Source of the DNA: Acidimicrobiia bacterium
GTDB lineage: Bacteria; Actinomycetota; Acidimicrobiia; Spongiisociales; Spongiisociaceae
Direction: 5' to 3'
NCBI GenBank assembly: GCA_009841105.1
Contig: VXMM01000037.1
Location: forward strand, 1 to 64,000
DNA length: 64,000 nt
This document shows, in pieces, positions 56,664-62,028 of the stretch; within the stretch, counting starts at the first letter, position 1; each line of letters opens with the position of its first letter. The notes beneath the pieces are model-generated. The model was not told where the DNA came from. It saw only the letters and a list, made by a program, of their open reading frames with translations, and did no database searches. A program made the position numbers and the translations under genes.

Positions 56664-57071
56664 GTGCTCTCACTCAGCGGACTGAACTGGCCGGCCATCA
56701 TCGTCGCGGCCATAGCGTTCTTCGGCCTGGCCGCCATCTGGTACCAACCCAAGGTCATGGGCACGAAATGGATGGAAGGCGCCGGGATCGAACCCCCATC
56801 CGACGGACCCAAGCCCATCTTCTTCGTGGTCACGTTCGTTGCGTACCTGGTGATGGCAACCGTCCTGGCCATGATCGCCCGCGCCGCAGGCGCATCCACC
56901 TTCGGCGAAGGACTGGTCCTGGGCCTGCTAACCGGATTCGCATTTGTAGCGCTCCAAGCCATGGTTAACGCCATCTACGAAGGCCGCGGACGGTGGATCG
57001 TCCGCGCCAACGGAGGCATAGGCATCATCGGCCACACCGTCATGGCCGTCATAGTCACCACCTGGGCCTGA
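56664..57071 (+). CDS. DUF1761 membrane protein
   Basis: A 135-residue protein with four hydrophobic segments: NWPAIIVAAIAFFGLAAIWY, PIFFVVTFVAYLVMATVLAMIA, FGEGLVLGLLTGFAFVALQ, and GIIGHTVMAVIVTTW, in the order of the DUF1761 family (unknown function). A short extracytoplasmic loop GTKWMEGAGIEPPS follows the first. GTG start with GGAGG directly upstream (56656-56660). A DNA fragment very like its codons 34-47 recurs at 62154-62194. Confidence 0.78.
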   Translation: MLSLSGLNWPAIIVAAIAFFGLAAIWYQPKVMGTKWMEGAGIEPPSDGPKPIFFVVTFVAYLVMATVLAMIARAAGASTFGEGLVLGLLTGFAFVALQAMVNAIYEGRGRWIVRANGGIGIIGHTVMAVIVTTWA

Positions 57072-57144
57072 CCCGACCCAGCTCGCAAAGGAAGTGAAGC
57101 CAGCAGGATGATGGCCACGCCGGACCGCAGGATGGTATTGATGA

Positions 57145-60100
57145 GTGGTACGGAGGTTGGCCCTTGAGCGAAGCCGCATTCAAGCTCTTCGACGAACCTT
57201 CAGGGATGAACAGGCCCGCTACCAGGCCAGGCGTATTCGGACGCGGGTGACAGAGGCTCGCCAAAGCATCCCATCTGCCGGGCCTCGTTGGCCATTTGAG
57301 TTGCTCCAGAACGCTCTTGACTCCGGTCCTCGGGCTGGTAACTCATCGGTAGCGATTCGCTTGAGTTGCGAGCAGACAAGAGTCGAATTCGAGCATGACG
57401 GTATCCCGTTTTCATCGAGCGACCTGACAGCGTTGCTGTCCGGTGGCTCGAACAAGGATTTCGAATCCGACGAGACGACCGGTCGTTTTGGGACGGGTTT
57501 CCTCGTTACGCACGTCTTGACCGAGAGAACAAGCCTTAACGGACTGCTACAAACTCCCAACGGGTACGAACAATTCGATCTACTATTGGATCGTGGAGGT
57601 GACGAAGAGGCAATCCTCCAAAATATGGAGGCTTGCCGGGAAGCCATCCGATCCGCAAGCCTCGTATCGGATCTGAATGGCGTCGCGTCAGCTAAGTTCG
57701 AATACCATACTGACGAGGACATTCCGCTGAATCTGGGAATTGACTCGCTAAGGTCTGCCTTACCTTACGTCTATGCTACCCGGCAAGTACTTGGCCGTGT
57801 TGAACTCCGGTATGGGCCGGGCCATAGGGAAGTTTGGACGCCTACTGAAGCTAACACTCAAGTCCTAAACGACGGCTATCTAGAACATCGTTCCCTTCAA
57901 GTACACCGCAACGGTAAGGATTGGCCCGAGCTTCGTATCTTTCGGTTCATGACAGAACGACAGGGATCGGCTTCAGCTCTAGTGTTGGTGAAGCATACAC
58001 GGGAAGGTTGGATGGTCGTTCCACCCGAAACGAACGCACCTCGGATTTACCGAGAATACCCTCTCAGTGGGTCAGGGTTCCTTCCGACCAATTTCATTCT
58101 TGACGGCAAGTTCGAGCCGGATCAAGAGCGCAGAAGGTTGCTCATGGCAGACGGAGACAAGGTTTTGCTGAAAGAAGCCTTTACCTCCGCAGGATTGGCT
58201 GTGAAGTACGCTCTTGACAACAAATGGAAGGACGGTCATGTACTTGTAGAAGCGAATGAGCCTAAGAGGGGATTCGATACAGCGGATGGAACAGAGAAGG
58301 AGTGGTGGCGAGGAGAGTTCGCAACATTTGCGAGGCGAGTGGCCGAATTACCGATAGTCGAGTGCTCATCACGTATGGTGCCTGCGATCGCCAAAGACGG
58401 TCCTCTCGCCGACTTCATTGTCCCACGCCTCCTGAAAGCATCTTCTGACAATGAGACGACCGTGGAGCGAATGTGGCCTCTTCTTGAGGCTGCGTCAGAG
58501 CTGCTGCCTGTTCGGAAGGAACTCGCAGTTGCCTGGAGTCATATAGCGGACGGATGGCACAGTCTGGGTCTATCAGTCAGTCGCATCACTGTCAGAGAGC
58601 TTCCCAGACGGGTCAGAGGCGAATCAGACAAGCTTGAAGACCTCAAGGTGGATGGCGACGCAAAGCAATGGCTAGGGCACTTCTTGGACGTTACCGGTGA
58701 GTGTTGGAAGAAACGATCTGGAGTAGATCTAGCGGTGTTAGACAGGATGGTTCCGGACCAGAATAACCGCCTTCGTTCGCCGTCAGACTTGAACCGTGAA
58801 AGCAGCATACCGGATTCTCTGAAAGACATCTGTGCCGATATCGGTCTCGACATTCGCAGTCGACTGCTCCTTCGTGAGTTTGATGAGCTGGCTGCGAAGG
58901 ATGGGATGCCCCATCTTCGCTATCTGCTTGAGAAGGCGCTGCCACACCGCATGACTGAGGAGGACGTCATCCGGGAAGCTGTAGAGTTCCTCAAGGACGC
59001 ACTTCCGGAAGACGAAGGCTGTGAGGACACGCTAACTGAAGTACGGCAAGGAGGCGTACGCCTATTGTCCTATCTTTGGGCAACCAAACAGGAACAGGCC
59101 CTTCCGATAGCTCGGCAAGTACCACTCATTACACACGGTGAAAAGGCGGTTCGCTGGAGCCACACTCGCATGTTATTGGCTCCTATTCGACGATGGCATA
59201 AAGTAGCACAGCCATTCGCAAATGCGTATCCGCCAGACCGCATCTTAGCCGAGATGTATGCAGGCTCCTCCTCCCAAGACTTACCCGAGTGTGTTAACGC
59301 ACTGGTTACATGGGGTATCGCAATCGAGGACCCGATCTATACCGATACACCGTCCGAGTTGACACCACGGCGCTTGGCAGAACTCAGTTCAATAGATACC
59401 ACCGGCGTGACTGTCCGGAACAACGATGAAGAATTCAGTCAAATCGCATTGCTCCAGCCCGAGGTACTGAATCGGTGCCGAGAGGGTACTCAGGAGGCTC
59501 GGGCGTTGCTTGGTCTAGTCTTGTGCCATGTGGCGCCACATGATCCGGCATGGCGCAAGACCCGAATCGTCAAAGCTCGGAGATCGAGGCAACCTATCGA
59601 CCTTCCAGTTACAGGCGCGCTATGGCTAGCCGACCTAAGAGTCCGAGCATGGGTGCCAATTCCCGACGAAGATGAGAAGCTTATGCCAATGCCTGCCAAC
59701 GCGAAGACTCTGAGTGAGTTACTAGACCCAGAGTGGTTGGAGCAGAACGACGCCGCAATCGACCTGTTGAGTGAATGGTTTGAGTTTGACCAGCTTGAAT
59801 TACGACTACTGGGCATTGAACCAAATGACAAGAAGCGCGAAAGGTTGCGAAATGGCTTAGCCAGACTGGTTGAGCTTGGGGGTGCTGACCCTGAATTCTA
59901 TTTGTCGTTAGCAGAAGAAGTAGAGGCACGAAGATCTAGACGTAGGGACATTGAACACTTCAGGCTAATGGGTGTCGGTGTGCAAGAAACAATCAAGTCA
60001 GCAATGGAGACCTACAAGTTGAATCTGAAGCTCTTCGACCGTGGGTTCGACTACGAGGTTACCGTACCGACCGACGATGTAGGCGGAATCGACGATTTGT

Positions 60101-60477
60101 CGAATAGGTTCACTGTTGGCCCGTACCTTCTGGAGGTTAAAGCTACGACCACTGGCAAAGCCCGTCTCACACCGTTGCAAGCGAAGACAGCAAGCAATGA
60201 CCCCGACAAGTATGTACTTTGCGTGGTCGATCTTCGTTCCTTTGACAAGAACGACCTGGCCCGTGAGTGGACCGAGGCCATCGTGAAGCCCCTTGCCAAG
60301 ATCGTCCCGGATATTGGCGTAAGGGTTAAGGGGACATATTCCTTAGTTGAACATGCAAAGTCAAGATCTATTGCCATTCAAAACGAGTCTGCTCTCAGGT
60401 ATGAAGTCCCCAGCGAGGTTTGGGAGTCTGGGATATCTATTGCTGATTGGGTTTCCACACTTTCAACTGATTGGTAA
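57145..60477 (+). CDS. Sacsin-like GHKL ATPase fused to PD-(D/E)xK domain, candidate defence protein
   Basis: A 1110-residue protein. The N-terminal region is a Bergerat (HSP90/histidine-kinase-like) ATPase: ELLQNALDS (residues 52-60, Glu and Asn of the N-box), HDGIPF (84-89), GGSNK (100-104) and TGRFGTGF (112-119), as in sacsin and NO VEIN proteins. A long, mostly helical middle has no named domain. The C-terminus has a PD-(D/E)xK-like core: GGIDDLSNRF, then YLLEVKATTTGKARLT (E-V-K about 997-999) and a following helix with Gln. Such a fusion suggests ATP-dependent sensing linked to DNA cleavage. GC is visibly lower than in the neighbours, supporting transfer. GTG start at 57145; the ribosome site is poor, so the start may be a few codons later. 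It stands alone. Confidence 0.65.
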   Translation: MVRRLALERSRIQALRRTFRDEQARYQARRIRTRVTEARQSIPSAGPRWPFELLQNALDSGPRAGNSSVAIRLSCEQTRVEFEHDGIPFSSSDLTALLSGGSNKDFESDETTGRFGTGFLVTHVLTERTSLNGLLQTPNGYEQFDLLLDRGGDEEAILQNMEACREAIRSASLVSDLNGVASAKFEYHTDEDIPLNLGIDSLRSALPYVYATRQVLGRVELRYGPGHREVWTPTEANTQVLNDGYLEHRSLQVHRNGKDWPELRIFRFMTERQGSASALVLVKHTREGWMVVPPETNAPRIYREYPLSGSGFLPTNFILDGKFEPDQERRRLLMADGDKVLLKEAFTSAGLAVKYALDNKWKDGHVLVEANEPKRGFDTADGTEKEWWRGEFATFARRVAELPIVECSSRMVPAIAKDGPLADFIVPRLLKASSDNETTVERMWPLLEAASELLPVRKELAVAWSHIADGWHSLGLSVSRITVRELPRRVRGESDKLEDLKVDGDAKQWLGHFLDVTGECWKKRSGVDLAVLDRMVPDQNNRLRSPSDLNRESSIPDSLKDICADIGLDIRSRLLLREFDELAAKDGMPHLRYLLEKALPHRMTEEDVIREAVEFLKDALPEDEGCEDTLTEVRQGGVRLLSYLWATKQEQALPIARQVPLITHGEKAVRWSHTRMLLAPIRRWHKVAQPFANAYPPDRILAEMYAGSSSQDLPECVNALVTWGIAIEDPIYTDTPSELTPRRLAELSSIDTTGVTVRNNDEEFSQIALLQPEVLNRCREGTQEARALLGLVLCHVAPHDPAWRKTRIVKARRSRQPIDLPVTGALWLADLRVRAWVPIPDEDEKLMPMPANAKTLSELLDPEWLEQNDAAIDLLSEWFEFDQLELRLLGIEPNDKKRERLRNGLARLVELGGADPEFYLSLAEEVEARRSRRRDIEHFRLMGVGVQETIKSAMETYKLNLKLFDRGFDYEVTVPTDDVGGIDDLSNRFTVGPYLLEVKATTTGKARLTPLQAKTASNDPDKYVLCVVDLRSFDKNDLAREWTEAIVKPLAKIVPDIGVRVKGTYSLVEHAKSRSIAIQNESALRYEVPSEVWESGISIADWVSTLSTDW

Positions 60478-60963
60478 TCCCGCATACTGAACCTTGAGCG
60501 ACGGGCTTAGGAGATCTGGGACGTCTCGTTCGGTACAGAGCCCAAACACATCGCTGACCCGAACCGGCGCCAACAGGCCAAACCTGCATACGGAGCGTCT
60601 CAATCGCTTCCCTGGAGGCTGGCCCTCGACATCGGGACGATCAATTCCCCACACGGAAGCCTTGAGATCGAACTCAGCGCCCAACGTGCCCTGGTTGTTA
60701 GGGGCTCCTGTGATCACGGGTGGTCCCAGCTCGTCGGATTGTGAGAGAGGCAGGGTCGGCGAAGGACCGCATGGTGGCGGCCCATCTCCCCTAGAGGCCC
60801 GCTTGCGGCGTCGGGTGGCGAGGTCCGTCGCGGCGGGTAGTCGGGGCGGTGGCCGGGCCGGTCGTCCCCGTCCTGGTCTGGGTGTTGTCCGGGCGAGGGA
60901 TGAGTCGGGCGGCATACCCGAACGGCAATGCCCCTTCGTCCGGGTGCCGCGAGGACCCAGCTG
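60478..60963. other. Intergenic region, no certain gene
   Basis: About 485 bp between the ATPase-nuclease gene (plus) and the cutinase gene (minus), which converge here. A minus-strand frame ending at 60463 contains SQSDELGPPVITGAP and later LGAEFDLKASVWGIDRPD, which could be protein-like, but it has no family match and a Pro/Arg-rich start. I do not call it. No clear terminator was seen. Confidence 0.35.
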
Positions 60964-62028
60964 TTACTTCGGCGCCTCCAGCACGCGGGCTACGGCTTCA
61001 CTCGCCGCCTCTTGGAAGTACTTGTCCGTATACACGCTGTGTATGGGTACGTGGAGGCGTCGGGTCTCCACATGGAAATGTATGCCGAGGATGAGGTCGA
61101 GGACGCTGCCGGTACAGACTCCGTCGCTCTGCTCGCACCACGACCCCACGCGGGACCCGATATCGGACGGTACGTACGGTGTCCGAGGACCGACCCTGAG
61201 GAACGCCAACCCATCGAGATTCAGGAGTCCGTTGCTGGTCGAGCACCCGACGGTTCCACGTCTCCAGGGCGACACCGCTCCCGCAATCCCCTGCCGGCAG
61301 CTTTCGACCGAATCCGTGCTTCCCCCCTCCGGAAGGTGCAGGGTCGGATCGCTGAACAACGCAACGTGGGCGACACGGTCCCGGTAACCCTTGCCGAGCA
61401 GGAACAGGCTCCGCCTGATGACTTGCGCACCCTGGGAGAACCCGCCGACCACCAACACCTCGTCAGGGCAGTCGGTCCCCCGATCCTCGAGGTACGCGGT
61501 GAACTCTCCGATGCCCTCGATAACCGAGTCCCTGTACTCCACCGCCCCCAAGCGGTTGATCTCAAGCAGATCGCTTCCTGACGACGAACTGCCCGCATCC
61601 TGACCGGACATCCGCCAGATCAAGGACCAGATGATCCTGATGATGTTGGTGCGGTACAGATCGAGGATCGCTGATATCCCGACAGCCCGATACCGGTAAC
61701 CCCCATAGTCTCGAGTCCCCAGCTCGTACTTGTTGATCGAGTAACCCGGCAGCCGGGTCTCGATGTGATCGAAATAGGCCCGGGCCATACCCCCATGACC
61801 GATGCCGGTCGCCAGTTCCTGATCCGAGCCGCGGGCGAACACGACCGTGAGGTCGGAGCATGCCGGCACCGCCACATCGTCAGTTCCTGCGGCAGAGGCA
61901 CCCACCCCGGAAGCCGAAACAGCCATAAGCAGCGCCAACAAGCCCGCCAGCAACCTGCGCGCCGACCCCGGCGCCTCCCGCACAGGCAACGAAGCGTTAC
62001 GGGTAGCCGACCGGAAAGGGGTTTCCAC
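60964..62028 (-). CDS. Secreted cutinase-family esterase
   Basis: A 354-residue exported serine esterase. The signal peptide is near residues 20-50 (RRLLAGLLALLMAVSASGVGASAAG). Catalytic elements in order are CSDLTVVFARGSDQE (first disulfide Cys), VLVVGGFSQGAQV (nucleophile Ser in G-F-S-Q-G), CEQSDGVC (Asp between Cys), and HVPIHSVYTDK (His). Cutinase-like esterases of actinobacteria act on lipid esters or cell-wall glycolipids. It is longer than classical cutinases (about 200) because of an insertion between FARGSDQ and the nucleophile (IRIIWSLIWRMSGQDAGSSSSGSD). Start GTG at 62028. Confidence 0.86.
   Translation of the reverse strand: METPFRSATRNASLPVREAPGSARRLLAGLLALLMAVSASGVGASAAGTDDVAVPACSDLTVVFARGSDQELATGIGHGGMARAYFDHIETRLPGYSINKYELGTRDYGGYRYRAVGISAILDLYRTNIIRIIWSLIWRMSGQDAGSSSSGSDLLEINRLGAVEYRDSVIEGIGEFTAYLEDRGTDCPDEVLVVGGFSQGAQVIRRSLFLLGKGYRDRVAHVALFSDPTLHLPEGGSTDSVESCRQGIAGAVSPWRRGTVGCSTSNGLLNLDGLAFLRVGPRTPYVPSDIGSRVGSWCEQSDGVCTGSVLDLILGIHFHVETRRLHVPIHSVYTDKYFQEAASEAVARVLEAPK

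Follow-up and report, generated by a model that had tools for sequence, protein, structure and literature searches.

Tiamat (TmtA; PADLOC model PDLC03967, DefenseFinder Tiamat) consists of a single large protein with an N-terminal GHKL ATPase; it is usually chromosomal in Actinobacteria (PMC10482375), and its mechanism is given as unknown (PMC10482375, PMC12926258). VcSduA (Shedu type I-D / paraMORC3) has an N-terminal GHKL ATPase, a clamp-like middle, and a C-terminal PD-(D/E)xK nuclease, and both sites are required, as defence was abolished by either E27A (ATPase) or K557A (nuclease) (PMC12137116). Proteins with the NO VEIN C-terminal domain (DUF3883/NOV_C) carry a C-terminal GxD...ExK...Q nuclease motif, and in restriction-modification (R-M) operons DUF3883 was described as fused to SNF2 helicases (PMC3710099). 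Sacsin combines three ATPase modules with DnaJ and HEPN domains (PMC3710099).

The gene considered here lies at positions 57145–60477 (+ strand) of a 64,000-nucleotide stretch of Acidimicrobiia DNA, hereafter called the window. As assembled, it is an open reading frame (ORF) of 1110 aa with a GTG start that encodes a TmtA/Tiamat-family GHKL ATPase–PD-(D/E)xK nuclease. With Tiamat it shares the single large protein and the N-terminal GHKL ATPase, and with VcSduA the order of ATPase, clamp-like middle, and C-terminal nuclease. The nuclease of VcSduA is, however, DUF4263 (Shedu), whereas that of the window protein is of the NOV_C/DUF3883 type, and VcSduA is much shorter, as implied by the residue numbers E27 and K557; it may serve as a working analogue from another family. 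The window protein resembles NO VEIN-type proteins in its C-terminal motif, which is joined to a GHKL ATPase instead of an SNF2 helicase, and resembles sacsin in its sacsin-type GHKL module, of which it has one, together with a DNase fold.

Family assignment and domain architecture

PDLC03967 matched the window protein with an E-value of 1.7e-88 in two stretches (residues 16–582 and about 916–1107), which covered profile positions 9–567 and 874–1057 of 1063 (~70% of the model), the second stretch extending to the C-terminal end of the protein and of the model. Other TmtA models with a match covered the ATPase part only. All 31 full-length relatives in alignment A2 were also matched by PDLC03967 in the PADLOC scan, and it is solely via this model match, not via an experimentally validated TmtA sequence, that the assignment to Tiamat runs. 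Tiamat is a single-gene system, and the window insertion (see below) contained no partner gene, its flanks being the ancestral locus. Judged by the profile match, the gene is thus a further member of the catalogued TmtA/Tiamat family. The initial annotation, made from the DNA alone, had proposed an undescribed defence system; this description was dropped because the PADLOC model already covers the family, and a tested GHKL/PD-(D/E)xK analogue, VcSduA, has been published (PMC12137116).

A GHKL ATPase and S5-like transducer module was assigned to residues about 18–363 (57196–58233, +) from NCBIfam, conservation, and predicted structure. The NCBIfam sacsin N-terminal ATP-binding domain (NF047352) was found at 55.7 bits (cut-off 50); Pfam HATPase_c was below its cut-off in the window protein (0.0021) and was matched by 13 of the 31 homologues. 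The N-box residues E52 (57298–57300, +) and N56 were invariant in all 31 full-length homologues, and so were, across A2, the three glycines of the G-box within the GHKL module (G113-x2-G116-x-G118, +). In the AlphaFold2 model of the full-length protein (mean pLDDT 88.9), residues about 10–363 matched Hsp90 (Z 15.0), TopoVIB (14.8), MORC3 (13.7), and sacsin SR1 (5v44; Z 13.2, 3.5 Å over 174 residues). The middle region (residues about 364–915; 58234–59889, +), a putative sensor or clamp, was well predicted (pLDDT mostly >85) and had no known-fold match in the full-model comparison.

Residues about 934–1108 (59944–60468, +) were assigned to an Hjc-like PD-(D/E)xK nuclease domain of the NOV_C/DUF3883 type by conservation, Pfam matches of homologues, and a domain model. 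Its putative catalytic residues D969 (60049–60051, +), E997 (60133–60135, +), K999 (60139–60141, +), and Q1012 (60178–60180, +) were invariant in 30/30 homologues; all four were likewise invariant across A2, E997 and K999 in all 31 of its full-length homologues. When the C-terminal 205 residues were modelled alone (pLDDT 89.9), the ten best structure matches were Hjc-type Holliday-junction resolvases (Z 10.4–10.9; top match Z 10.9, 3.4 Å over 113 residues), below which came mostly PD-(D/E)xK endonucleases (I-Ssp6803I, SPARDA effectors, PvuII, RecU, DpnI) and, with lower Z, some tRNA-splicing endonucleases. NOV_C (PF13020) was matched by 17 of the 31 homologues (best 2.5e-6) and in the window protein reached 13.8 bits against a cut-off of 22.1 (E 0.064). 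Pfam and PADLOC scans of the window protein and its homologues gave no match to DUF4263/Shedu and found NOV_C instead; sequence searches against the PDB returned nothing informative.

The modelling thus confirmed an Hjc-like PD-(D/E)xK nuclease as the predicted fold of the C-terminus. Both ends of the protein therefore agree with the initial annotation, which had recognised a sacsin/HSP90-like ATPase and a PD-(D/E)xK-like EVK site and had named the absence of a nuclease fold as grounds for abandoning its proposal. The intervening ~850 residues that it had left without recognised domains shrank to ~550, because the predicted GHKL and S5 module extends to about residue 363. Its suggested comparison with sacsin and DUF3883 held for sacsin SR1 and, in 17 of the 31 homologues, for NOV_C; in the window protein, the NOV_C match stayed below the cut-off.

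Insertion site and horizontal transfer

By blastn, junction reading, and flank searches, the gene was located within a segment (57089–60893) that two genomes of the same genus, G003 and G008, lack. It is flanked on the left by a gene for a small membrane protein (56664–57071, +) and on the right by a gene of the cutinase family (60964–62028, −), each of them conserved in 8 of 10 genomes of the genus. These two genes are nearly adjacent in G003 and G008, where the aligned parts are 9 and 17 bases apart, and in G006 the slot is occupied by about 500 bases that include a ribbon-helix-helix-like ORF. Hence, the segment is a lineage-specific insertion, and the two flanking genes enclose a variable site in the genus. 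The right edge of the insertion falls at 60893 against G006 and at 60981 against G003 and G008. The insertion edges showed neither a target-site duplication nor an integrase or transposase, only 9-base repeats at chance level. The ORF in the G006 slot (L036:3596–3871) is small and has no evident partner, and G008 (L035) carries a second copy of the left flanking gene beyond the cutinase gene.

The gene is a recent insertion into this lineage, and its entry between two genes that lie almost side by side in sister genomes accounts for its lone appearance in the genome, as noted in the initial annotation. The deviating composition reported there was likewise recovered: the ORF has a GC content of 0.533 and a GC3 of 0.545, compared with 0.655 GC for the window and a GC3 of mostly 0.67–0.91 in its other long ORFs, one of which has 0.51. 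Across the homologous loci, gene GC was lower than that of the surroundings in 38 of 42. The genome itself has one copy, and one other genome among the 395 of the class carries the gene. The homologue in G281 (JAPPFD010000013.1), a genome of the same order but of a different family, has 79.6% DNA identity, its blastn match starting exactly at the left edge (57088). In the tree, the window gene, the G281 gene, and one Chloroflexota gene formed a fully supported group, next to which stood further Chloroflexota and Pseudomonadota. Horizontal transfer of the window gene is well supported, the tree discordance by itself being no proof of it.

Distribution and genomic neighbourhood

The window protein as a lone query gave no matches in genome contigs or viral contigs. 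A three-member alignment (the window protein and two cyanobacterial plasmid relatives) was used as the query and yielded 80 loci, ~30 of which encode full-length homologues (20–75% identical) in Chloroflexota, Pseudomonadota, Nitrospirota, Myxococcota, Acidobacteriota, Gemmatimonadota, Poribacteria, and others. Searches of phage records gave no match, and those of plasmids gave distant members only.

Roughly half of the close homologues have defence genes nearby. The G281 homologue is accompanied by Hma system genes, an HNH endonuclease, and an Avs1b-like protein, and further neighbours are AbiEi/AbiEii and DrmC (L043), a Mokosh MkoA-like protein (L044), and a TIR protein (L066); a cyanobacterial plasmid member also adjoins a TIR gene. 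In a Gemmatimonadota MAG, a PDC-S35 (TIR-like nucleotide-binding) gene (L045:1306–2190) and the start of the TmtA gene have 4 bases in common, which suggests an operon of the two. Near a Dehalococcoidia homologue, a pMORC-like GHKL ORF adjoins a C5 DNA methyltransferase gene (L048:3333–5913), an arrangement as in MORC-type R-M operons (PMC2292703). Around the close homologues L042, L049, and L038, no defence gene was in view.

In the PADLOC scan, 147 neighbour ORFs hit 73 families, compared with 40 families, including helicases and AbiEi, for 127 random ORFs. Enrichment of the homologues in defence islands is hence suggestive but not demonstrated, because the random-region control likewise gave matches. 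The neighbourhood check proposed in the initial annotation was thus answered by the presence of defence genes but not by proof of their enrichment; consistently housekeeping surroundings, named there as evidence against a defence role, were not seen, the homologues lying in no single conserved housekeeping operon.

N-terminus and alternative explanations

We regard it as likely that the gene product, a TmtA (Tiamat-family) protein, is a stand-alone anti-phage factor whose gene was recently acquired horizontally and that may work by clamp-gated DNA cleavage. Established in this explanation are the homology, both folds, the conservation of the catalytic residues, and the insertion of the gene into the lineage; the defence role itself is probable, and we infer action against phages or other foreign DNA. 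An apparent frameshift in the window copy speaks against this reading. In a nucleotide alignment with L011, L049, L043, and L037, relatives begin at a conserved TTG start (TTGAGCGA), and their N-termini follow the pattern MSxxAFKxxE. This TTG, the probable ancestral start codon, is also present in the window at 57164–57166 (+) with a GGAGG-like site upstream, but the window has one base fewer than its relatives near 57199 (~codon 12). Because of this deletion the TTG is out of frame, and the family frame runs on from the upstream GTG at 57145, the first 17 residues being unlike the family; judged from the alignment, residues 1–17 are probably not the family's true N-terminus. The window copy may have either an altered N-terminus or a wrong assembly, and the same choice between assembly error and decay applies to the closest relative, G281, whose copy is broken mid-gene into two frames by what looks like a single-base frameshift (L011, about 9205) that is absent from other members with intact frames. 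Both observations could point to a decaying or dead defence gene whose native start was killed by the deletion and whose ORF looks complete via the in-frame upstream GTG. The other 1093 codons are nevertheless intact with every catalytic residue kept, translation could still begin at the GTG with a possible ribosome site, and the window and G281 sequences are both apparently metagenome assemblies, in which single-base errors occur, so that decay is judged unlikely, though it is the strongest of the competing accounts.

Another reading takes the protein for a sacsin-like stress or proteostasis protein or a DNA-repair, resolvase-type enzyme that was transferred but does not serve defence. It would agree with the nearest folds, Hsp90 and sacsin for the ATPase module and Hjc junction resolvases for the nuclease, and with the position of several homologues alone amid housekeeping genes, e.g., L042 in Nitrospira. 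Against it stand the patchy cross-phylum spread, the low GC, and the empty site in sister genomes, which are typical of an accessory defence gene, and the classification of the whole family as TmtA by PADLOC; we consider it slightly less probable than decay. A housekeeping role as the main reading was rejected because sister genomes lack the gene. The association of GHKL-plus-nuclease proteins with restriction-type systems (PMC2292703) and the occurrence of DUF3883 as a restriction-endonuclease-fold domain of R-M operons (PMC3710099) would fit a protein that discriminates self from non-self DNA and is directed chiefly at plasmids or transforming DNA instead of phages. A modification gene is, however, absent beside the window gene and in most of the homologous loci, and this target appears the least probable of the three.

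Proposed mechanism

For the anti-phage reading, ATP-driven clamp gating of the C-terminal nuclease after phage sensing is suggested by analogy. GHKL proteins dimerise and close a clamp, driven by ATP. The GHKL and S5 module would accordingly dimerise and, with ATP, close in the manner of Hsp90, TopoVIB, and MORC, while the middle region of roughly 550 residues might respond to a phage trigger or grip DNA. Closure of the clamp would position the paired C-terminal PD-(D/E)xK domains so that DNA is cut, either phage DNA only or host DNA too (abortive infection). ATP-gated, DNA-targeting immunity by a single protein, as envisaged in the initial annotation, thereby gains plausibility from the fusion of a GHKL ATPase with a nuclease and from VcSduA. 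It is conceivable, with somewhat less than an even chance, that this subfamily offers a testable mechanism for Tiamat, namely Hsp90-type ATP clamp closure that activates an Hjc-like PD-(D/E)xK DNase, and that a Bacillota/cyanobacterial branch replaced or lost the nuclease and acts otherwise. The GHKL-plus-nuclease principle of VcSduA would then extend to a much larger sacsin-like family. Tiamat is recurrent in defence surveys, and the homologue set with its invariant residues makes the mechanism directly testable; the window copy itself is one added family member.

The Bacillota/cyanobacterial branch (L062, L065, L070, L009, L010) belongs to the same PADLOC family. Profile comparison gave no support (Prob 0.1%) to the idea that its C-terminus is a decayed version of the PD-(D/E)xK nuclease. 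The C-terminal 200 residues of these members carry a conserved "RPSDGGQVIIYY...ELWVEDG...TGINRIPL" in place of D...ExK, and the nuclease is hence not essential to everything called TmtA.
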